DNA of 55,218 nucleotides, taken from the NCBI GenBank assembly GCA_016201275.1, contig JACQDB010000026.1:1-55218 (forward strand), read 5' to 3'. Each line of letters begins with the position of its first letter. Positions within the stretch are counted from its first letter, which is position 1. Made by a program: the position numbers and the translations under genes. The notes below the pieces were generated by a model. The model was given only the letters and a program-made list of their open reading frames with translations. It was not told the DNA's origin and made no database searches. The DNA comes from Acidobacteriota bacterium. Its GTDB lineage: Bacteria > Acidobacteriota > Blastocatellia > UBA7656. Below are positions 727-17,911 of the stretch, one piece after another.

Positions 727-2211
727 TTATGGCAACACCGATTCGCCCATCAAGTATTGGTCAACGCCACGCGCAGCGCGACGGCCATCAGCAATCGCCC
801 ACACCACCAACGATTGACCGCGTGACATATCACCGGCAGCAAAGACGCTCGCTACACTGGTTTCGGAATTTTTGCCTATGGCAACATTGCCGCGTTCATT
901 AATCGTGACGCCCAATTGATCCAACAAGCCGTCTTTTTCCGGCCCCAGAAATCCCATTGCCAGCAACACCATTTGTGCAGGCCAGACCTTTTCCGTATCA
1001 AGAATTTCCTGCGGCGCAAAGCCACCGTTTGCGCCCTTGACCCATTCGATTTGCACCGTGCGTATGCCCTGCACGCGGCCTTGCTCATCGCCGATGAACG
1101 CCTTGCTCATAATGCAGTATTCACGCGGGTCGCTGCCGAATTTGGCCGCCGCTTCTTCCTGCCCATAATCCCTGCGATAAACTTTTGGCCATTGCGGCCA
1201 AGGGTTATCGGCAGCGCGTTCGTTCGGCGGTTGCGGCAAAATTTCAAACTGCACCAAGCTCCGACAACCGTGTCGCATAGACGTGCCTACGCAATCAGTG
1301 CCGGTGTCGCCGCCGCCAATCACAATGACATCTTGATCTTTGGCCGAAAGATAATTGCCATCCTCGTGATTGCTGTCGAGCAGGCTCTTGGTATTGGCGT
1401 GCAGAAACTCCATAGCGAAATGTATGCCCTGCAAGTTGCGGCCTTCGATGGGCAGGTCACGCGCTTTCGTAGCGCCGCCGCACAACACCACCGCATCGAA
1501 TTCTTGCTTCAACTTCTCGACTGGAAAATCTTTGCCGACGTTGGTGCGGGTAACGAAGCGCACGCCCTCTTCACTCATCAAGTCAACGCGGCGCTCGACG
1601 ATGCGTTTGTCGAGTTTCATGTTCGGTATGCCGTACATCAACAATCCGCCTATGCGGTCGGCGCGTTCAAAGACCGTGACCCAGTGTCCGGCGGTATTGA
1701 GTTGCGCGGCGCAGGCAAGACCTGCGGGACCCGACCCGATAATCGCTACCTTTTTGCCCGTGCGTTTGGCGGGAATTTCCGGCGTCACCCAGCCTTCTGC
1801 AAAAGCGCGTTCGATGATTTCGCATTCGATGTTTTTTATGGTGACCGGCGGTTCGCTGATGCCTAAGACGCAAGAGCCTTCGCAGGGCGCAGGACAGACG
1901 CGCCCGGTGAATTCGGGAAAGTTGTTGGTTTTTTGCAGACGGTGCAGAGCTTCGCGCCACTGCCCGCGATAAACCAGATCGTTCCATTCGGGAATCAGAT
2001 TGTTAATCGGGCAGCCTGATGCCATACCGTTGAAGAGCGCGCCGGTGTGACAAAACGGCACACCGCAATCCATGCAGCGTGCGCCCTGTTCGCGCAGCAT
2101 CGCTTCCGGCGCGTGACCATGAAATTCCTGCCAATCATGCAGACGCTCTAGAGGCGCTCGATCAACGGGCAACTCGCGCACATATTCCATAAATCCGGTT
2201 GGCTTACCCAT
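727..2211 (-). CDS. gltD: Glutamate synthase small subunit (NADPH-GOGAT beta)
   Basis: This subunit feeds electrons from NAD(P)H through FAD and iron-sulfur clusters to GltB, allowing 2-oxoglutarate plus glutamine to become two glutamates in the cytoplasm. At 494 residues it has the usual length. The N-terminal ferredoxin-like part shows the cluster cysteines C46, C49, C54 and C106, C110, C114. The FAD-binding GSGPAG is at 159-164 and the NAD(P)-binding GGGDTG at about 299-304, followed by the C-terminal [14 protein letters not shown]. The ATG start has a CGAGG-type ribosome binding site. It lies 31 bases behind gltB in the same direction, so the two are almost certainly cotranscribed. Confidence 0.97.
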
Positions 2212-7650: not shown

Positions 7651-8613
7651 TCAGTTGATGGCGGTTAGCTCTTTGACATCCTTCGCGGTTTTTTCTACTG
7701 CTGATAGATTCTGTTCATCTATCGTCGGCACGGCCAACGCTCGAATGACTTTCATAAACGCCTGCGCCGCATGAGAATGCGATTCGGTTTTGCGACGCAC
7801 CGCCCACAAATTGCGTTCGTGATGAAAGCCTTCAAGCGGTATGATGGCCAACTCGCCGCGTGCTACGGCTTCTTCGACGCACATCAACGGCACAAAGCCC
7901 AGACCGATATTCAGCGCCACGAATTTCTTGATCGTCTCCATTGTGGCGATCTCAGTAGTAATGTTGAGCGGCGTCTGAAATTTGCGAAACGTATCTATCA
8001 CTTTTTGCCGCGCCGGTGAATGAGCGTTGTGGGCGATGAAAGCTTCGCCGCCGAGGTCGCGTATATGCACGCGCTTCTCTTGTGCTAGATGATGATCGGG
8101 GCTGGCAATTAACACCAGCTTGTCGCGCATGATTAAGGTGGATTCCAAGTCGCTTTCATCAGGCAGAAACGACAGGATGGCAACATCGAGATTGCGCTGG
8201 CGCACTTCATAAGGCAGCTTGGCCGATAGCTGGCGAAACACTTCGATCTTGATGCGCGGATACTGTTCGCGGAACGCCAGAATGATTTGCGGCAACAGGT
8301 AGAGACTGGTGCTTTCATTCGCGCCTATGCGTATGCGCCCCGCTTGCAGGGTGTGCAATTGTTTGAGCGTGGTCAACGCCTCGTCGCGCAGATTGAGCAG
8401 GCGTCTGGCGTATTCGTACAACACTTCGCCACTGTCGGTGAGCGAATAATCATTGCGATTGGTGCGATCAAAAAGCGGCGCACCGATCTCCTGTTCCAGC
8501 TTGCGTAGCGCCATGCTCAAAGCCGGTTGGGTGCGAAAGACGCGCTCCGCCGCTTTGTGAAAATTGCTTTCCTCAACCATCGCTACAAACATTTCAAGCT
8601 GCATTAAATCCAT
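7651..8613 (-). CDS. LysR-family transcriptional regulator
   Basis: This is a 320-residue protein of standard LysR length. Residues 1-60 are the winged helix-turn-helix (MQLEMFVAMVEESNFHKAAE, then RTQPALSMALRKLEQEIGAPLFDR). The rest is a periplasmic-binding-protein-like effector domain starting near residue 90 (GRIRIGANESTSLYLLPQII). The effector cannot be read from sequence. It is the next gene after leuB (68 bases), in the same direction and followed by a cytochrome and gltBD, so it may control the leu/ilv or glt genes. LysR regulators more often sit divergently from their targets, so this is only a context inference. The ATG has AAGGA upstream. Confidence 0.93.
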   Translation of the reverse strand: MDLMQLEMFVAMVEESNFHKAAERVFRTQPALSMALRKLEQEIGAPLFDRTNRNDYSLTDSGEVLYEYARRLLNLRDEALTTLKQLHTLQAGRIRIGANESTSLYLLPQIILAFREQYPRIKIEVFRQLSAKLPYEVRQRNLDVAILSFLPDESDLESTLIMRDKLVLIASPDHHLAQEKRVHIRDLGGEAFIAHNAHSPARQKVIDTFRKFQTPLNITTEIATMETIKKFVALNIGLGFVPLMCVEEAVARGELAIIPLEGFHHERNLWAVRRKTESHSHAAQAFMKVIRALAVPTIDEQNLSAVEKTAKDVKELTAIN

Positions 8614-8681: not shown

Positions 8682-9776
8682 CTATTCGGTAGCCGTTGAC
8701 CACTTGCCGGTGATCCCCTCGCACACCGCATCGCCCATCTGTGTGGTCGAAATATACGCGCCGCCTGCGGCCAAATCTGCTGTGCGTAGTCCTTCGGCGA
8801 GCGCCGCGTCAATCGCCTTTTCAACAGCGTGGGCTTCGGCTTCCAACTCGAACGAATAGCGCAGCATCAGCGCCACCGAAGCAATCGTGCCTAACGGATT
8901 GGCTTTCCCTTGTCCGGCAATGTCGGGCGCGGAACCATGAATTGGTTCATACAAACCAACCGGCCCGCCGAGGCTTGCAGAGGCCAGCATTCCTATGGAA
9001 CCGGAAATCACCGCCGCTTCATCCGACAAAATATCGCCGAACATATTTTCTGTGAGAATCACATCGAAGCGGCGCGGCTCGCGCACCAACTGCATCGCGC
9101 AGTTATCAACCAATATGTGTTCGAGTTTAATGTGCGGATAATCTTTCGCCACGCGCTCGACCACCTGTCGCCAGAGTTGCGAGGTTTCCAACACGTTCGC
9201 CTTATCAACCGAAGCCACCAAGCCGCGCCGTTTTTCCGCTGCTTTGAACGCTACATGAGCAATGCGTTCAATCTCGGCAACGTCGTAGCTCATGGTATTA
9301 AAGCCGCGTGTCCATTGGCCGTTTTCTTCGTCGAAACCGCGCGGCGTAGCGAAATATAAACCGCCCAACAACTCGCGCACGATGAGCAAATCACAGCCTT
9401 TGACAATATCCGCTTTCAGCGGCGAGGCTTCAATTAATTCATCGTAAACTATCACCGGTCGCAGGTTGGCAAACGCCTGCAAAGCCTTTCGCAATCCGAG
9501 CAGGCCGTCTTCCGGTTTCAAGCCGCGCGGGTTCTTGTCGTATTGCGGCCCGCCGACTGCGCCCAGCAAAACCGCTTTGCTTGAAAGACAAGCGGCAATC
9601 GTTGCCTCGGGAAGCGGTGAACCAAACGCCTCTACCGCATTGCCGCCGATGGCGTGTTCGCCGATTTCAACTTCGTGATTGAATTTGTCGGCCACTACGC
9701 GCAGCACTTTGATGGCCTCACGAACCACCTCCGGCCCGATGCCATCCCCCGGCAATGCTGTGATCTTCAGTTTCAT
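8682..9776 (-). CDS. leuB: 3-isopropylmalate dehydrogenase
   Basis: LeuB oxidises and decarboxylates 3-isopropylmalate to 2-oxoisocaproate with NAD, the third step of leucine synthesis. The 364-residue protein starts with [12 protein letters not shown] and carries the substrate-loop signature [15 protein letters not shown]. It also has the metal-binding region [12 protein letters not shown] and [15 protein letters not shown]-type nucleotide-binding residues, all typical of the isocitrate/isopropylmalate dehydrogenase family. It is the last biosynthetic gene of the leuA-ilvBNC-ilvD-leuB run. Only a weak ribosome binding site precedes the ATG, which directly abuts the heptad repeat array. leuC and leuD are not in the window. 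Confidence 0.96.
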
Positions 9777-10079: not shown

Positions 10080-10147
10080 CACCTCCACACTTTCTTCACC
10101 TCTTCACTTTCTTCACCTCTACACTTTCTTCACCTCTACACTTTCTT
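10080..10147. repeat. 17-bp tandem repeat, four units, overlapping the ilvD stop
   Basis: Four units of cacctctacactttctt (with one or two changes in the two outer units) run head to tail. The last unit contains the ilvD stop codon and the codons for its final residues (KKV), which suggests that the repeat grew from the end of the gene into the spacer. Confidence 0.85.
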
Positions 10148-11803
10148 CAATACCGCGCCGGTATTCGCCGAAGTCACCAGATGAGCATAACGCCGCAGGT
10201 ACGAACTCTTGACGCGTACTTCAAAGGGCGGCAAGGCGGCAAGGCGCGCGGCGATTTCGGTCGCTTCCAAATCTACTTCCAGGGTGTTGCGCTGCAAATC
10301 AATAGTGATTCTATCGCCATCCTGCAACGCCGCAATCGGGCCACCGGCTGCGGCTTCCGGTGAAACGTGGCCGATGCAGATGCCGCGAGTCGCGCCGGAA
10401 AATCGCCCGTCAGTGAGGAGCGCCACATCTTTGCCTAATCCCATGCCGACGATGTTGGCGGTCGGCGCAAGCATCTCCTGCATACCGGGGCCGCCGCGTG
10501 GCCCTTCATAACGAATCACTACGACAGCGCCTTTCGTCACTCGTCCTGCAAGAATCGCTACGCAGGCGTTTTCCATCGAATCGAAAACCTGCGCCGTGCC
10601 GACAAAGTAATTCAAATCGGCAGCAGAGCGTTTGATGACCGCGCCATCCGGCGCTAGGTTGCCAAACAACGTACACAGCGCGCCGGTCGCGGAAAACGGT
10701 TCTTCAACCGAGCGAACGACATCGCCATCTGGTTCCAAAGCATCGGCGATATTTTCGCCAAGCGTTTTCAACGTCACGGTCTTTTGACTTAAATCCAAAG
10801 CGCCTTCGCGTTTCGCCAGTTCTTTCAAAATCACGTTGATGCCGCCGACTCTCAAGAGGTCTTCCATGTGAATGTCTGGGCGAGCGGGGCTGATTTTGCA
10901 CAGCGTCGGCACGCGCTCCGATATTTCGTTGAGGCGTTCGAGCGGATATTCAATCCCCGCTTCACGCGCAATCGCCAGTGTGTGCAACACCGTATTGGTC
11001 GAACCACCCATCGCCACATCAAGCGCAAACGCATTATCAAACGACGCCAGCGTGATGAAGTCTCGCGGCTTCAAATCGGCTTTGACGATTTCGATAATCT
11101 GATGCCCGGCACGACGCACCAACTCGCGGCGCTCTTCGGAATCGGCAAGCAAAGTGCCGTTACCCGGCAGCGCAAACCCCAAAGCTTCCATCAAGCAGTT
11201 CATTGAATTGGCCGTGAACATTCCCGAACACGAGCCGCACGTAGGGCAAGCTACGTCTTCGATTTCCTGCAATTCGGCTGCGCTGATTTTGCCCGCCTGC
11301 AATTGACCTACGCCTTCAAAAACGTGCATCAGGTCAACCGCTTTGCCCGCCGCAGTTTTCCCTGCGCGCATTGCGCCGCCGCTGACAAAGATGGTCGGCA
11401 CGTTGACGCGCATAGCGCCCATCAACATCCCCGGCACAATCTTGTCGCAGTTCGGTATGCACACCATGCCGTCGAGGCGATGCGCTTCGATGACCGTTTC
11501 CACCGAATCAGCAATGATTTCACGCGACGGCAGACTGTACTTCATGCCTATGTGTCCCATCGCTATGCCATCGTCCACGCCAATGGTATTAAATTCGAAG
11601 GGAATGCCTCCGGCTTCGCGCACCGCATCTTTCGCCAGTTTGCCAAGCTCCTGCAAATGGCGATGGCCGGGAATGATGTCTATGTACGAATTGCAAATGC
11701 CTATGAAAGGCTTTCGCATATCGCTATCGGTGACGCCGCACGCCTTCAGCAGACTGCGATGCGGCGCACGCTCCGCGCCCAGTTTGATTAAATCGCTTCG
11801 CAT
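10136..11803 (-). CDS. ilvD: Dihydroxy-acid dehydratase
   Basis: IlvD dehydrates 2,3-dihydroxy-isovalerate and 2,3-dihydroxy-3-methylvalerate to the 2-oxo acids, the third common step of valine and isoleucine synthesis. The 555-residue protein has the family's normal length. It shows cluster-ligand cysteines C119 ([10 protein letters not shown]) and C192 ([11 protein letters not shown]), with a further conserved-position cysteine at C37 ([13 protein letters not shown]). The lysine- and Mg-binding region and the C-terminal [19 protein letters not shown] are present. No good ribosome binding site precedes the ATG; the leader immediately upstream is a heptad repeat that can form a hairpin. The 3' end is overlapped by the 17-bp tandem repeat. 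Confidence 0.97.
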
Positions 11804-11895: not shown

Positions 11896-12270
11896 CTAAA
11901 CCGCCCACAACAATTGATCGGGATCGTGATGCAGGAAACGGTCTTCGCCGCTGATCCAATCTACTCGTGTGGGTGTGCATATATCAATGGCAACGGTGTC
12001 TTCCAGAACTTCCGAAGAGTGTTCGGTGCCCGAAGGAATCGCCAGCATCTGATTGGCGCGCAACGTCACCTCGCCGGTCGGCAGATAAAATCGCCACGCG
12101 CCTTTTAACACGATCACAACTTCTTCGCTTTCGTGCGAGTGAGTTTGCGTTCGTGCGCCCTCTTTCACTTGCACTTGCGCGACCATGATATTTTCACCGA
12201 GCGCCATTTTTCGGCTATAGAGTTCGGTGATCTCTTCCGGTCTCATCTTGTCCCAATCATAAAAACCCAT
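11896..12270 (-). CDS. Cupin-domain protein of unknown function
   Basis: A 124-residue single-domain cupin. The first cupin motif is visible as THSHESEEVVIVLKGAW (metal-binding H, H, E around residues 42-48) and the second as PSGTEHSSE with its histidine near residue 83. Such proteins bind a metal in a small beta-barrel and may be sensors, isomerases or oxygenases; nothing here fixes the substrate. It lies between ilvC (60 bases upstream) and ilvD in the same direction, so it is probably cotranscribed with branched-chain amino acid genes. A clear AGGAG lies eight bases before the ATG. Confidence 0.85.
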   Translation of the reverse strand: MGFYDWDKMRPEEITELYSRKMALGENIMVAQVQVKEGARTQTHSHESEEVVIVLKGAWRFYLPTGEVTLRANQMLAIPSGTEHSSEVLEDTVAIDICTPTRVDWISGEDRFLHHDPDQLLWAV

Positions 12271-12330: not shown

Positions 12331-13347
12331 TTAATTCTTGGCCTTGTTGACTAACTGATTCTTTTGCAGCCACGGCATCATGGCGCGCAATTCTTTACCA
12401 ACGGCTTCAATCGGATGCGCTAAGGATGCCGCTTCCATCTCCTTGAAGCGCGGTTTACCGGCTTCGTTTTCCGCCATCCATTCATCGGCAAACGCCCCCG
12501 ATTGAATTTCCGCAAGCAATTGCTTCATCTCCTGGCGCACGCCTTCATTGATGACACGCTTGCCGCGTGTCAAATCGCCGTACTCGGCGGTGTTGGATAC
12601 AGAATAGCGCATATTGGCCAAGCCGCCTTCATAAATCAAATCCACGATCAACTTCACTTCATGCAGACACTCGAAGTAGGCCATCTCTTTCGAGTAGCCC
12701 GCTTCCGTCAATGTATCAAAGCCCGCTTGAATCAGTTCAGCGAGGCCGCCGCACAAGACTGCCTGTTCGCCGAACAAATCGGTTTCGGTCTCTTCCTTGA
12801 AAGTGGTTTCAAGAATCGCTGCGCGTCCGCCGCCGATGGCCGAAGCATAAGCCAAGCCTAGTTGTCTGGTGTTGCCGCTGGGGTCTTGATAAACCGCCAG
12901 CAAGCAAGGGACGCCGCGCCCTTCGCTGTATTCGTGGCGCACCAGATGGCCTGGGCCTTTCGGCGCGACCATGAAAACATTGACGCCTTCGGGCGGCACA
13001 ATTTTTTTGAAGTGAATAGAGAAGCCATGCGCGAAGGCCAAGGTTTTACCCGGCAACAGATTCGGCGCGATGTCCTGCGCGTAAATCTTTGGCGAGAGTT
13101 CGTCGGGCGTCAACATCATCACGACATCGGCATTGAATGCGGCTTCGGCGGTGTCCTGCACCGTAAGGCCGGACGCTTCGGCTTTGGCGCGGGAAGGGCT
13201 GTCGGCCTTGAGTCCGACGATTACTTCAATGCCCGATTCTTTCAAGTTATTGGCGTGCGCGTGACCTTGCGAGCCATAGCCGATGATGGCTACTTTTTTG
13301 CTCTTCAAAAAATCAAGGTCAGCATCCTGGTCATAAAAAATCTTCAT
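12331..13347 (-). CDS. ilvC: Ketol-acid reductoisomerase
   Basis: IlvC isomerises and reduces acetolactate or acetohydroxybutyrate to the dihydroxy acid, using NADPH and Mg. I start at the ATG giving [11 protein letters not shown], which has CGAGG a few bases upstream; an in-frame TTG four codons earlier overlaps that site. The resulting 338 residues match the short (class I) bacterial enzymes. The Rossmann motif [10 protein letters not shown] is near residues 22-31. The helical domain holds acidic metal ligands ([10 protein letters not shown], then [19 protein letters not shown]). It sits between ilvN and the cupin, all on the minus strand. Confidence 0.97.
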
Positions 13348-13366
13348 AATTCCTCGCAAAATGGAT

Positions 13367-13472
13367 TTCTGGTTTCTAGTCTTAAATCGAGTTTCTAGTT
13401 TCTGATTTCTATTTTCTGGTTTGATACCACACGCAATAACCAGAAACTAGAAACTAGAAACCAGAAACCATT
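13367..13472. repeat. Heptanucleotide inverted-repeat spacer (tttctgg/tttctag)
   Basis: Plus-strand heptads tttctgg, tttctag, tttctga, tttctat (13367-13421) face their complements (aaccaga, aactaga) at 13435-13468, forming a long potential hairpin between ilvN and ilvC. The right arm enters ilvN: the last codons of ilvN (Met-Val-Ser-Gly-Phe-stop) are written in the repeat itself. Confidence 0.8.
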
Positions 13473-13963
13473 TTTTCTGCGGCTTCGGGCAAGCGTTGAA
13501 TCGCCACCGCGCCGGTTCGCACGACCTCTTGAACCCCCAAGGGTTTCAAGGCGGTAATCAAACCGCGCACCGTGTTGCAATCGCCCGTCGCCTCTATGAT
13601 GAAGCCTTCTTCGGAGGCATCCACCACTTTGGCATTAAAGACCGAAGCCAGATTCAATACTTTCTGGCGCTCGGTCTCGCTGTTCACTTTCACTTTGATG
13701 AACGCCATCTCGCGTTCGATGTGATCGAGTTTGGTCACATCAAAGGCCGACAGTACGCGCACCTGTTTATTCAAAACTTTGACCATCTTTTCAATGGTCG
13801 GTTCGTCGCCGCTCGTCACAATGGTCAGGCTCGAAATCTTTGCCTCCAGCGTCGGCGATACGGTCAAACTTTCGATGACCTGCCCACGGGCGCTGAATAG
13901 ACCAATGATGCGCGGCAATTCGCCGAAGCGGTCTTCTACCAAAACGGAAATCGTGTGTTTCAT
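13454..13963 (-). CDS. ilvN: Acetolactate synthase small (regulatory) subunit
   Basis: The small subunit activates the catalytic subunit IlvB and makes it sensitive to valine. The 169-residue protein starts with the ACT domain (MKHTISVLVEDRFGELPRII, then ARGQVIESLTVSPT). A C-terminal domain follows with FNAKVVDASEEGFIIEATG and the GDCNTVRGLITALKPLGVQEVVRTG region. Length and order are those of IlvH/IlvN. The final five residues (MVSGF) are encoded by the heptad repeat, so the natural C-terminus has probably been altered by repeat growth. It lies 91 bases after ilvB, separated by another heptad spacer. Confidence 0.96.
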   Translation of the reverse strand: MKHTISVLVEDRFGELPRIIGLFSARGQVIESLTVSPTLEAKISSLTIVTSGDEPTIEKMVKVLNKQVRVLSAFDVTKLDHIEREMAFIKVKVNSETERQKVLNLASVFNAKVVDASEEGFIIEATGDCNTVRGLITALKPLGVQEVVRTGAVAIQRLPEAAEKMVSGF

Positions 13964-13971
13964 ATTTGCTC

Positions 13972-14057
13972 TTTGTTATTGGTTATTTGTTACTGGTTCG
14001 TCACTACAGGAACTTTGTGGCAGCGACAAATACCCAGTAACCAGTAACCAATAACTA
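13972..14057. repeat. Heptanucleotide inverted-repeat spacer (ttattgg/ttactgg)
   Basis: Heptads ttattgg, ttatttg, ttactgg (plus strand, 13976-13999) face complements (ccagtaa, ccaataa) at 14031-14055. On the minus strand the array starts directly at the ilvB stop codon (TAG then TTATTGG). It separates ilvB from ilvN and replaces what is often a translationally coupled junction. Confidence 0.8.
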
Positions 14058-15794
14058 ATTCAATATCATCTCTTTCAATCCGGCTCCTGCCGGAACCATC
14101 GGATAAACATTCAAGTTTTCGGCCACCACTATGTCCATCACCACAACGCCGGGCGTCGCCAGTCCGCGTGCTAAAACGTCGCGCAATTCATCGGGGTGGG
14201 TGGCTCGGAGTCCCGTTGCGCCATAGGCTTCGGCGAGTTTCACGAAATCGGGATTGCCGCTTAAATTGACGCTGGCGTATTTCTTGTCATAGAACATATC
14301 CTGAAGCTGGCGAACCATGCCTAAGAAATTATTATTCATGATGATGATTTTGACATTGGCTCCGGCAAGCACGGCGGTCGCCAGTTCCTGCGAAGTCATC
14401 TGAAAGCCGCCATCGCCGACAAAGGCAATCACCTGTTTTTCGGGATGCGCCAGTTGCGCGCCCAAGGCCGCAGGAAAACCGAAACCCATCGTGCCAAGCC
14501 CACCCGACGTGATGTTTTGACGCGGCCCGTTGAATGGATAATGCTGCGCCAGCCACATCTGATGTTGGCCTACGTCGGTGGTGATGATGGCGTCGCCTTT
14601 GGTCAAACGATGCAACTCGTGAATCAAGTGCTGCGGCATGATTACGTCTTCGGACTTTTCTACTTTCAGCGGCGCGTAAGCTTTCCAGCCTTCAATCTGC
14701 GCCCACCAATCTACCAGACGATTTTTATCTATAGCGATTTCGCCCGCTTTCAATTCGGCGAGCATCTGGCGCAAGACGCTGCGGGCATCGCCGGTGATGC
14801 CTATGTGAGCGCGCACGTTTTTGCTGATCGAAGTCGGGTCTATGTCAACGTGAATAATTTCGGCGCGGGGCGCGAATTTATTCAGCGCGCCGGTAACGCG
14901 GTCATCAAATCGTGCGCCGATGGCGACAATTAAATCGGCTTCCGAAATCGCCATATTCGCCCAATACATACCGTGCATTCCCAGCATACCGAGCGCCAAC
15001 GGATGCCCAGACGGAAAACCACCCAAGCCCATCAAGGTTGGCGTCACCGGCAGGGCGAGGCTTTCGGCCAACTCGACGACTTCATCAAAAGCGTTGGCGT
15101 GAATGACGCCGCCGCCGATGTAGAGAACCGGGCGACGCGCTGCGAGCATTTTGGCGACCGCCTGTTTGACTTTTTCCACTTCGCCGAAAGTTTGCGGCTC
15201 ATAACCCGGCGCGGCAACTGCTTCGGGATAAATGAACGGCGCGTTCTGCATACAAACATCTTTCGGAATGTCTATCAACACAGGGCCGGGGCGTCCGGTC
15301 TGCGCCAGATGAAAGGCTTCTTTGATGATGGCCGGAAGTTCCCGCGCCTCGCGCACCAGATAATTGTACTTGGTGCAGGGTCGCGTGATGCCTACGGTGT
15401 CCACCTCTTGAAACGCATCGTTGCCAATCAAGGCGCAAGGCACTTGGCCGGTAATGATGACGATGGGCGTCGAATCCATGTAAGCGTTAGCGATGCCAGT
15501 GACGGTGTTGGTTGCGCCGGGGCCTGAAGTGACCAAGACGACGCCGACTTTGCCTGTAGCTTTGGCATAACCTTCGGCCATGTGCATAGCGCCCTGTTCG
15601 TGGCGCACCAGTATGTGTTTGAGTTTGTCTTCGAGGCTGAGGAGTTCGTCATAAATGGGCAGCACAACGCCGCCCGGATAGCCGAATATGGTATCCACGC
15701 CCTCGCGCATCAAGGCTTCGCAGACGATGCGCGCCCCGCGCATGATTTGCGGTGCAACTTCGTGTTTGATCAATTCTTTCATTATCGCTGCCAT
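14055..15794 (-). CDS. ilvB: Acetolactate synthase large (catalytic) subunit
   Basis: IlvB condenses two pyruvates, or pyruvate plus 2-oxobutyrate, with thiamine diphosphate, FAD and Mg; it is the committed and usually regulated step of valine, leucine and isoleucine synthesis. The 579-residue protein has the catalytic glutamate at about residue 66 (VRHEQGAMHMAEGYA), the central FAD-associated domain, and the ThDP/Mg motif beginning GDGGFQMTSQEL near residue 459 and ending in NN. The ATG at 15794 is preceded by TAGGAGA. It is the first gene downstream of the candidate attenuator, about 100 bases from the terminator hairpin. Confidence 0.97.
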   Translation of the reverse strand: MAAIMKELIKHEVAPQIMRGARIVCEALMREGVDTIFGYPGGVVLPIYDELLSLEDKLKHILVRHEQGAMHMAEGYAKATGKVGVVLVTSGPGATNTVTGIANAYMDSTPIVIITGQVPCALIGNDAFQEVDTVGITRPCTKYNYLVREARELPAIIKEAFHLAQTGRPGPVLIDIPKDVCMQNAPFIYPEAVAAPGYEPQTFGEVEKVKQAVAKMLAARRPVLYIGGGVIHANAFDEVVELAESLALPVTPTLMGLGGFPSGHPLALGMLGMHGMYWANMAISEADLIVAIGARFDDRVTGALNKFAPRAEIIHVDIDPTSISKNVRAHIGITGDARSVLRQMLAELKAGEIAIDKNRLVDWWAQIEGWKAYAPLKVEKSEDVIMPQHLIHELHRLTKGDAIITTDVGQHQMWLAQHYPFNGPRQNITSGGLGTMGFGFPAALGAQLAHPEKQVIAFVGDGGFQMTSQELATAVLAGANVKIIIMNNNFLGMVRQLQDMFYDKKYASVNLSGNPDFVKLAEAYGATGLRATHPDELRDVLARGLATPGVVVMDIVVAENLNVYPMVPAGAGLKEMILN

Positions 15795-15897
15795 CAGGTC
15801 TCCTAAAGTTGCTTCCCGTTTAAATCCCTTTTTTGCCCTTCGTCGGTGCGTTTTCGGCTGCCGAGTTATGGCTCTGTCAAAATTATTTATCTAAACG

Positions 15898-15935
15898 AAA
15901 AGGCCGTCATCTTGTGGTTTAGGATGACGGCCTTT
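15898..15935 (-). terminator. Intrinsic terminator/attenuator hairpin upstream of ilvB
   Basis: A 13-bp perfect stem (15899-15911 with 15923-15935, 11-base loop) contains GGCCGTCATC/GATGACGGCC and, on the minus strand, ends in CCTTTTCGTTT. It lies 25 bases after the stop of the branched-chain-rich ORF and about 100 bases before ilvB. It could simply terminate leuA transcripts, but the overlapping antiterminator pairing favours attenuation. Confidence 0.8.
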
Positions 15936-15966
15936 GCGAGTAATGCTTTGCAATAGACCGTCATCC
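15922..15966 (-). promoter_or_regulatory. Candidate antiterminator for ilvB
   Basis: The minus-strand RNA segment GGAUGACGGUC (15966-15956) can pair over all 11 positions (one G-U) with GGCCGUCAUCC (15932-15922), which is also the 5' arm of the terminator at 15898-15935. The first segment spans the last sense codon and stop codon (GGA UGA) of the leader ORF, so a ribosome finishing the ORF would mask it and release the terminator. The two foldings exclude one another. Function is inferred from the geometry. Confidence 0.7.
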
Positions 15967-16113
15967 GCTCTTAATAATCAAGCTGATAATTACGACTAGA
16001 ATAGCGGCTACGGCGAGTAGAGTGACGGCAGAAATGGCAACAGGAGAGAACACCACTCCTGCCGTCTGTGCAGAACTGTTCATTGACAATTTTGTTGGTC
16101 TGCCCATGTTCAT
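15961..16113 (-). CDS. Branched-chain-rich short ORF, candidate leader peptide for ilvB
   Basis: This 50-codon ORF starts 10 bases after the leuA stop (ATG preceded by GAGAG) and ends in the antiterminator. Its 3' half is Ser-Pro-Val-Ala-Ile..., then an 18-residue stretch (residues 30-47) with 12 Leu, Val or Ile (VTLLAVAAILVVIISLII), followed by Lys-Ser-Gly-stop. Scarcity of any branched-chain aminoacyl-tRNA would stall a ribosome here, before the antiterminator segment. Alternatively it is a real one-segment membrane protein: the same stretch could span a membrane. The match between codon content, stop-codon position and exclusive hairpins makes the leader reading more likely, but both could be true. 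Confidence 0.7.
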   Translation of the reverse strand: MNMGRPTKLSMNSSAQTAGVVFSPVAISAVTLLAVAAILVVIISLIIKSG

Positions 16114-16123
16114 AAACTCTCGC

Positions 16124-17677
16124 TCAATCCGCCGCGCCCATAAACGCTTTCTCTTTCGGTCTATTGGTATGCCGAGCGTGAATCGCCTTGTTGATGGCGT
16201 GTAAATAAGCGCGCACGCTGGCTTCCACAACATCTGTCGAAGCAGCGCGACCGGTATATTCTTTGCCCTCGAACTCAACGTGAGCGAAGACTTCGCCAAC
16301 CGCATCGCGGCCATTGGTCACCGAATGCACCGAGTAATCCAGCAGCTTGCCGCTCATCCCGGTCAGAAAATCTATGGCGGCATAAGCCGCGCCCACCGGC
16401 CCACCGGCCTGCGCCGTGCGCGACATCATCTGGCCGTCGCGTTCCAGAGTCACCGTCGCCCAAGCATCTTTGGTGGTTCCCGCCAAGGCTTCGACATTGC
16501 GAAGCTTGAAGGTTTCAGGAATCTCGCGCAGGCCGTCCTGCAAAATGGCCATCAAATCTTCGTCGTAAATTTCTTTCTTCTGGTCGGCCAGCTTGATGAA
16601 GAGCTTGTAGGCTTTGTCTAGTTCGCTGCGACTGACCGCATAGCCCATCTCTTCATAGCGTTTTTGCAAAGCGTGACGACCGGAGTGTTTGCCCAAAACC
16701 AGAGCGCTCTGTTTTACGCCTACGGTTTCGGGCCTCATGATTTCGTAAGTCAATTTGTCAGCCAGCACACCGTGTTGATGAATGCCCGCTTCGTGAGCGA
16801 AAGCATTTTTGCCGACGATGGCTTTATTGGGTTGCACGGGAATGCCGATGATGTTGGAGAGCATCTGGCTGCTGCGATAAATCTCTTCGGTCTTGATGCC
16901 GGTTTGGTAATCGAGCAAATCGTGGCGAACGCGCAAGGCCATGACCGCCTCTTCCAAAGAAGCGTTGCCAGCGCGTTCGCCTATGCCATTCAGGGTGCAT
17001 TCCAACTGTCTGGCTCCGGCTTCAATAGCCGTGAGGGAGTTGGCAACAGCTAATCCCAAATCGTTATGGCAGTGAACCGATAGCGTGATGTTTTCGAGGC
17101 CTTCCACACGTTCTTGGAGAGTCGTCAGAATATGCGCGTACTCTCGCGGAATGGTGTAGCCAACCGTATCGGGGATGTTGATCGTGGTGGCTCCGGCTTG
17201 AATGGCAACGCGCACCACCTCGCACAGAAAATCGAGGTTGGTGCGGGTGGCGTCTTCAGCGGAAAACTCCACGTCTTCGGTAAAGCTGCGAGCTAAAGCA
17301 ACGGATCGAGCGATTTGTTCGAGACACTGTTCGCGAGTGATCTTCAACTTGGCATGGAGATGAATATCAGATGTCGCCAGGAAGGTGTGAAGGCGCGGGT
17401 GTTGGGCTTCTTGTAAAGCCTGCCAAGCGCGTTCAATATCCTCGCGGGTCGCGCGAGCCAGAGCCGCGATAATCGGGCGACGCACCGCACCGGACACTTC
17501 GCGCACCGCCGCAAAATCATCATCCGAAGCAATCGGGAAACCGGCTTCGATGACATCTACGCCGAGCGCCTCAAGTTGCACCGCCATTCGCAGTTTTTCT
17601 TCAAGGTTCATGCTGCAACCTGGCGATTGTTCGCCGTCGCGAAGAGTCGTGTCGAATATCTTTACTCTGGCCGTCAT
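16124..17677 (-). CDS. leuA: 2-isopropylmalate synthase
   Basis: LeuA condenses acetyl-CoA with 2-oxoisovalerate, the first committed step of leucine synthesis, and is normally feedback-inhibited by leucine. I start at the ATG giving [20 protein letters not shown], the family's usual N-terminus; a GTG 14 codons earlier has no ribosome binding site. The 517-residue protein has the HMG-CoA-lyase-like TIM barrel with HCHNDLGLA metal ligands. It also has the linker with GIHQHGVL and GKHSGRHAL, and the C-terminal regulatory dimer domain (about 390-505). It is the first gene of the run and lies upstream of the attenuator, so it would escape that control. Confidence 0.95.
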
Positions 17678-17733
17678 CCTTTTCAACCTTTTGCACAAGC
17701 GATCTTTGACAAAATACACTAAGGAGGTCTTTT

Positions 17734-17772
17734 ATGAATAACACTCTTGTTCCGCAACCAGCAAATAGATAG
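17734..17772 (+). other. Twelve-codon ORF with a perfect Shine-Dalgarno, antisense to the leuA leader
   Basis: AAGGAGGT at 17721-17728 is five bases before ATG, opening a 12-codon ORF (MNNTLVPQPANR). The site is a full match to the anti-Shine-Dalgarno complement, but the ORF is tiny and its codons show no pattern. On the other strand the same bases read ACCTCCTT in the leuA leader. Function unknown. Confidence 0.25.
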
Positions 17773-17911
17773 TTTTTATCAACTGATAAGCGTCGCTCAT
17801 TCCCGCCGATTGGCAGCCCAATTTTGAGAGGCCTCTGACCGCTGGCTTGGCTCTCCCGTGCGCCGACAGCGCAACAACGAAGCGACCGGCAATTTTCAAA
17901 CCGGCTGGATG

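Follow-up and report, generated by a model that had tools for sequence, protein, structure and literature searches.

A predicted branched-chain amino acid attenuator between leuA and ilvB in an acidobacterial operon, with related leaders elsewhere in the phylum

We analyzed a 55,218-nt stretch of contig JACQDB010000026.1 from an Acidobacteriota bacterium of the class Blastocatellia (hereafter the window) and found that the gap between leuA and ilvB very probably harbors a genuine attenuator that responds to branched-chain amino acids and controls ilvB and the genes following it. We consider it highly likely that this element is a ribosome-mediated attenuator sensing charged Leu, Val and Ile tRNAs from inside a leuA-ilvBNC-cupin-ilvD transcript, a mechanism predicted from the leader ORF, its helices, their covariation, the codon bias in relatives and the gene context. 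Leader-peptide attenuators are well known from the ilv and leu operons of enteric bacteria.

Results

Leader ORF and competing helices

By Pfam, the gene order in the window is leuA, ilvB, ilvN, ilvC, a cupin gene, ilvD and leuB, and then a LysR gene. The features are listed below.

17761-17792, minus strand: block upstream of leuA kept in the relative G002 (CGCTTATCAnTTGATAAAAACnATCTATTTGC), candidate promoter/operator
16124-17719, minus strand: leuA, 2-isopropylmalate synthase (Pfam), upstream of the attenuator; start more likely at 17677
16024-16066, minus strand: third hairpin, within the leader ORF, candidate pause hairpin (repeat search)
15961-16113, minus strand: leader peptide ORF of 50 codons with the Leu/Val/Ile run (residues 30-47), start 10 nt past the leuA stop
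15956-15966, minus strand: segment C, antiterminator 5' arm holding the leader stop codon (GGATGACGGTC)
15922-15932, minus strand: segment D, antiterminator 3' arm (GGCCGTCATCC)
15923-15935, minus strand: terminator 5' arm, overlapping segment D
15899-15911, minus strand: segment E, terminator 3' arm (GATGACGGCCTTT)
15890-15901, minus strand: T-rich intrinsic terminator tail, sharing positions with the end of segment E
14055-15794, minus strand: ilvB, acetolactate synthase large subunit (Pfam), first putatively controlled gene
13454-13963, minus strand: ilvN, acetolactate synthase small subunit (Pfam)
12331-13359, minus strand: ilvC, ketol-acid reductoisomerase (Pfam)
11896-12270, minus strand: cupin-domain protein (Pfam), recurring beside ilvC in relatives
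10136-11803, minus strand: ilvD, dihydroxy-acid dehydratase (Pfam)
8682-9776, minus strand: leuB, isopropylmalate dehydrogenase (Pfam), 359 nt past ilvD

The leader ORF, which begins 10 nt after the leuA stop codon (16126-16124), encodes MNMGRPTKLSMNSSAQTAGVVFSPVAISAVTLLAVAAILVVIISLIIKSG and terminates in GGA-TGA, with its stop codon sitting within segment C, i.e. in the antiterminator arm. C pairs with D over 11 positions, one of them G-U, and the terminator comprises 13 perfect pairs running into TTTTCGTTT; as segment D is common to both, the two helices are mutually exclusive. A repeat search of the window recovered both inverted repeats (I1 and I3) and a third one inside the leader ORF, with arms at 16024-16037 and 16053-16066. 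Upon re-reading of the sequence, the ORF, its GGA-TGA end and the helix coordinates given in a preliminary description of this DNA proved right, but the number of Leu/Val/Ile codons at residues 30-47 is 13 of 18 rather than the 12 stated there. Two of the four Leu codons in this run are CTA, a codon that makes up 3% of Leu codons in six genes counted. The fold was more stable than expected both for the 96 nt spanning the hairpins (z = -4.27) and for 236 nt around the element (z = -5.31), with 0 of 200 shuffles as good in either case. The arm motif GGATGACGGCC occurs 6 times in the window with at most one mismatch (1.14 expected), three of these occurrences being arms of the element itself.

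Computed energies were -25.0 kcal/mol for C..D and -21.0 kcal/mol for D..E. In a fold model with a ribosome footprint of 12 nt downstream, placed at codons 28-51, all 11 nt of C were free with the ribosome at codons 28-45, C was partly covered at codons 46-48 and wholly covered at 49-51, and the terminator formed once C was masked. Without a ribosome, C:D wins in the static fold; classical attenuators terminate when untranslated. With longer flanking sequence the minimum free energy structure is the terminator, and since the structure flips with flank length, which of C:D and the terminator prevails is a matter of context and timing. A ribosome that has just completed leuA may trail the polymerase closely, so that the untranslated state may be rare here.

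Predicted course of attenuation

We propose that RNA polymerase would transcribe leuA and then the leader ORF, and that the ribosome finishing leuA would probably reinitiate at the leader start, given that this start lies only 10 nt past the leuA stop. With ample Leu, Val and Ile, the ribosome would reach the stop codon inside C and cover C, allowing D to pair with E, so that transcription would end after leuA. When Leu, Val or Ile is scarce, the ribosome would stall in codons 30-45 and leave C free; C:D would then form, the terminator would be blocked, and ilvB and the following genes would be transcribed. The predicted parts of this scheme are ribosome stalling, termination in vivo, a transcript shared with leuA, and translational coupling. 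leuB, after its 359-nt gap, may be under the same control as ilvB. A TTGACA lies past the terminator at 15880-15875 and a consensus scan placed a promoter-like site at 15910-15882 (9 such sites found vs. 10.3 expected from shuffles); the attenuator could be bypassed by a promoter located within the terminator or past it.

Leaders ahead of ilvB in the class

To define the device at other loci, we used a rule comprising 1) a T-tailed hairpin with a score of at least 24 lying within 420 nt of ilvB; 2) a leader ORF no shorter than 14 codons whose end falls in the interval from 70 nt before to 2 nt after the hairpin start; and 3) a 14-residue stretch near the end of this ORF with 7 or more Leu/Val/Ile. 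Among 56 class loci (the window plus 55 fetched places), 32 satisfied the rule; of 1120 dinucleotide shuffles of these loci 2 did so, and of their 56 reverse strands none did. The rule was not blind, having been written after the same class loci had been inspected. The loci derive from 59 IlvB matches in 57 of the 162 class genomes, leaving out three matches cut by contig ends (G049, G125 and G145). The rule is strict for some of the 24 loci that fail it, as L133 and L152 match the covariance model R1 described below. Over 27 ilvB leaders, the mean Leu/Val/Ile fraction of the last 25 residues is 0.45. Only 1 of 77 ilvB loci mostly from other phyla, i.e. those with enough upstream sequence among 80 fetched from named genomes, satisfied the rule, and this single case appears to be spurious. 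Of 60 ilvB loci picked and read from the other classes of the phylum, 5 did so; as far as ilvB is concerned, the device is therefore concentrated in the class of the window.

At L123, L124, L127 and L130, terminator-like hairpins (GGCCATCAAC...GTTGATGGC and close variants) precede ilvB without a Leu/Val/Ile leader passing the rule, and a LysR gene is divergent upstream at three of them (L123, L127, L130). The second ilvB of the window genome (L111, on another contig) is preceded by a leader of its own, ...IIIVIISIMIIT. In 105 of the 162 class genomes (63 of the 101 better ones), the search for IlvB gave no match at E 1e-100, so that many species of the class may be auxotrophic for branched-chain amino acids or rely on a distantly related enzyme.

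Covarying helices and an unconserved peptide N-terminus

For covariation analysis, we aligned 25 of the 32 class leaders, in which C either overlaps the stop codon or immediately follows it, and left out 7 leaders of families f4 and f6, in which C lies 6-23 nt before the stop-codon end and C and E are alike at 6 of 6 to 7 of 9 positions. In the antiterminator, 86.5% of C:D cells were paired and 7 of 11 pairs had changed on both sides, a covariation score reached by 0 of 500 shuffles, with slid registers pairing at no more than 49.4%. In the terminator, D:E was paired in 95.2% of cells, with double changes in 6 of 10 pairs, values that are inflated since the rows were selected for having a hairpin; C:D was no selection criterion. 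When the D segments of 37 leaders (32 from the class and 5 from outside, in 11 families) were swapped, C paired its own D with a mean of 22.0 vs. 14.6 with the D of other families, an excess matched by 0 of 2000 permutations; some single loci, among them L131 and L134, showed no such excess (0.45 and 0.59 of swapped D at least as good). In the comparison between families, for which C was picked as the best partner of D, C and E shift together (TGACGGC, TGATGGCC, GTAATGAC, CTCGCCG, GGTGGC). Segment B (GCCGTCA), a possible masker of C, was no better than shuffles in the window (104/300); scored at the 37 leaders, B:C stood far above shuffles at L113 (1/300), L116 (0/300) and L136 (2/300) and not at many others.

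The leader peptide has no Pfam match and no NCBIfam match near its cut-off, its N-terminus is not conserved among relatives, and its similarity to the G002 leader is not significant, comprising a BLASTP stretch of 7 residues at E 2.0, despite operon proteins that are 65-87% identical between the two. The preliminary description, which had proposed a branched-chain attenuator here, is thereby supported: Leu/Val/Ile codons are retained in relatives, antiterminator and terminator both covary, and the window and G002 peptides have no significant similarity, the opposite of an ORF kept as a protein beside hairpins that are not. These data also bear on the possibility that the ORF encodes a functional small membrane protein, with the hairpin as the ordinary terminator of the leuA transcript and ilvB served by its own promoter further down. 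The hydrophobic C-terminus of the peptide and the TTGACA after the terminator would be in keeping with this view, which we nonetheless regard as very improbable, since it fits poorly with the dissimilar G002 peptide and the lack of domain matches, and since a plain terminator leaves unexplained both the covarying C:D helix and the Thr- or Phe/Tyr-rich leaders found before aspartokinase and prephenate dehydratase genes (see below).

Place behind leuA

Among the 37 detected leaders, leuA directly precedes the leader in two, those of the window (10 nt) and G002 (5 nt). leuB precedes the leader on the same strand at L132, L142, L145, L148, L163 and L164 (families f4 and f6), the leuB match ending about 120-290 nt before the leader start; at most of the remaining leaders, no leu gene was found just upstream. 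The intra-operon place after leuA noted in the preliminary description is thus real but confined to two leaders, and the position inside an operon is a local variant of a widespread device.

The block at 17792-17761 is near-identical in G002 amid otherwise poorly alignable sequence upstream of leuA, and holds a TTATCA-N-TTGATAA palindrome, a possible promoter/operator. In view of this conserved block, leuA is probably transcribed from its own promoter, with the attenuator gating continuation into ilvB, and leuA may escape the attenuation that would govern the downstream genes; the gap of only 10 nt leaves no room for a promoter between the leuA stop and the leader start. We also considered long-range pairing of the leuA start region (17669-17679), which is fully complementary to segment D, and dropped it, as the motif is absent from the leuA start of G002. 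The LysR homologue closing the ilv/leu cluster of the window (7651-8613) may bind the 17761-17792 block; LysR relatives lie divergent, upstream of ilvB, at class loci L119, L123, L125, L127, L130 and L161.

Related leaders before other amino acid genes

A covariance model (R1) of the 13 terminator pairs, built from 25 ilvB sequences, found 50 places at E ≤0.001, distributed over 40 of 162 class genomes and comprising by coordinates 27 ilvB leaders and 23 others. The latter precede gltB (8), cimA (6), pheA (3), ilvA (2), cupin-like (2) and LysR (2) genes, with one of the ilvA genes assigned from a near-identical leader at a contig end. Ten of these 23 genes were checked by HMM and all fit, the ilvA-like gene at L283 falling below NCBIfam cut-offs, and one cupin-like gene checked by HMM had no Pfam match at 1e-10; the rest were named by eye from similarity. 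In the phylum, R1 found 59 places (47 of 395 genomes), 35 of them outside the class; the 20 of these 35 that were read comprised ilvN (5), ilvD (3), LysR (3), aspartokinase (2), ilvA (1), pheA (1), a transporter (1) and 4 without assignment, and 10 of the 20 genes were checked by HMM. On 698,644 bases covering the 80 ilvB loci of named genomes, R1 gave no full-length match at E ≤1 and two partial matches only (E 0.16 and 0.37). A second model, R2, had 75 matches, 6 being reverse-strand matches of the same hairpins, and was for that reason applied to a single search, that of the window genome, where neither R1 nor R2 found a further convincing member besides the window element and L111.

Leader composition often, but not always, follows the pathway of the downstream gene. 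Both aspartokinases match the bifunctional thrA type best, but are truncated by the end of the fetched stretch and score below the cut-off of that model; in their leaders, Thr makes up 0.44 and 0.24 of the last 25 residues (e.g. SATRTRTSPTCTTLTTTRETSTG), resembling the enteric thr leader. In two of the four pheA leaders, Phe/Tyr accounts for 0.28 and 0.32 of the last 25 residues; one LysR leader has 0.24 Cys in this stretch; the cimA and ilvA leaders have Ile-rich runs. There are also misfits: the pheA leader L302 is Val-rich and L294 reaches a Phe/Tyr fraction of just 0.12, Leu/Val/Ile fractions are 0.16 and 0.12 in the gltB leaders L284 and L286, and LysR leader L295 has two Cys only.

At individual loci, Thr-rich leaders with the same core precede aspartokinase at L307 1911-2000 (-) and L314 702-797 (+) (e.g. 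TCTTLTTTRETSTG); Phe/Tyr-rich leaders with the core precede prephenate dehydratase at L271/L299 and L291 (SPFFRTFGFYYFYLLDG; SFNNFSFYFYF); and a Cys-rich leader (CCCACW...ACACSRGG) with the core precedes a LysR regulator at L287 2001-2102 (-). The core also lies before gltB or gltB-like genes in 8 class genomes (L248 1501-1589 (-), L272/L296, L278/L297, L284, L286, L288, L292, L293), 5 of the 8 leaders having at least 0.28 Leu/Val/Ile near the end; via these leaders, glutamate supply might rise upon branched-chain amino acid shortage. Weak matches at L245 and L246 (about 1501-1600 (+), genomes G005 and G001, E 0.084 and 0.238) hold an ORF with YCICCSAL before a gene that by eye is sirohaem-synthase-like, a possible cysteine leader in the window's own family.

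Over 42 non-ilvB rows, C:D pairing was 81.7% vs. 77.7% in shuffled rows (maximum of 500 shuffles 80.6%), a modest excess. Core likeness between elements before different genes averaged 0.562 within genomes (12 pairs) vs. 0.513 between genomes (102 pairs), and the within-genome value was equalled by 75 of 5000 random draws, the pairs being non-independent and the 18 elements hand-chosen. Whether the attenuators across the phylum form a set with a shared, re-targeted core of common origin is, in our judgment, evenly poised.

In Rfam release 15, 0 families reached gathering score in the window; at the element itself, just two microRNA models, far below cut-off, appeared at E ≤10, and there was no match at its place in the loci of 15 relatives. 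The Rfam search does find Acido-Lenti-1 RNA in a class relative, in keeping with the phylum assignment, and a TPP riboswitch before thiC elsewhere in the window genome (RF00059; G000 contig C162, 23523-23618 (+), L241), where a weak R1 match (E 0.34) was accordingly rejected as false. Since some bacteria are reported to have ppGpp riboswitches ahead of ilvB (PMC10272879), a ligand-binding riboswitch of this sort, with the short ORF as incidental, would be another reading of the element. We find this hardly credible in light of the Rfam results, the codon identity that often tracks the pathway, and an alignment of the 3' part of the element in which the stop-codon arm and the terminator are the parts that stay constant.

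Discussion

The data argue for the attenuator predicted above over an account in which translation alone would couple the genes. Such control without attenuation, with reinitiation at the leader easing leuA-ilvB polarity and the hairpin serving as a 3' stabilizer or leaky terminator, is consistent with the leader start 10 nt past the leuA stop and with the proposal that short leader genes near structural genes aid reinitiation (PMC4833913), but strikes us as extremely improbable, since the 166 nt between leader stop and ilvB start are far beyond the distances discussed in the cited part of that paper, and since mutually exclusive helices and codon bias play no role in it.

As to origin, we see a half-and-half prospect that the core CGGATGATGG ... 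GGCCATCATCCG ... GGATGATGGCCTTTT has spread over the amino acid genes of the phylum with its codons exchanged (Leu/Val/Ile codons at ilvB, ilvD, ilvN, cimA and ilvA and, more surprisingly, at some glutamate synthase genes; Thr codons at aspartokinase, Phe/Tyr codons at pheA and Cys codons ahead of a LysR gene), and that in the lineage of the window it has moved behind leuA and become coupled to its translation. If so, leuA expression would be independent of that of the downstream genes, functions would be assigned to several dozen sites in genomes of this kind, and an attenuator would be acting within an operon with the ribosome already close behind RNA polymerase. There would also be a natural series in which one RNA core is joined to different amino acid sensors, leaving the spread and re-targeting of attenuators open to direct study.

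Almost no acidobacterial attenuator had an assigned function according to the cited part of a 2010 survey (PMC2965389), and we found by title and abstract no published account of such an attenuator in this phylum, the comparative survey of Lopatovskaya et al. (2010), which could contain examples, lying outside this comparison. The shared core with differing control codons and the leuA-adjacent place look new within this comparison. The ilvB-OMG motif, found upstream of ilvB in "various bacterial phyla" with a uORF rich in branched-chain and Thr codons and proposed as an attenuator (PMC10272879), resembles the window element as an ilvB-upstream uORF attenuator, compared here by description and not by alignment. 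The same 2023 paper argues that leader-peptide control of ilvB is common, and equates the ilvBNC attenuator of Corynebacterium with the ilvB-II motif. Leader peptides of ilvB, leuS and cys genes in Actinobacteria (PMC1262725) are likewise a comparative prediction, with terminators before ilvB, but belong to another phylum, and the part of that report cited here describes no core shared across pathways; it also cites a finding that replacing possible ilvB control codons had no effect in Streptomyces coelicolor. In Staphylococcus aureus, the branched-chain operon has a leucine-rich attenuator (PMC5794164), again leader-peptide control of branched-chain synthesis. As far as the cited accounts go, the window element shares with the enteric ilv/leu and Corynebacterium ilvBNC attenuators a short Leu/Val/Ile-rich ORF, a terminator, an alternative antiterminator and a branched-chain operon downstream. 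It differs from them in that its antiterminator arm contains the stop codon of the leader, in that it has no Rfam match, and in that those attenuators precede the first gene of the operon, whereas this one follows the leuA stop by 10 nt and lies before ilvB. Its mechanism is thus an ordinary one of a known kind, and its place is unusual.
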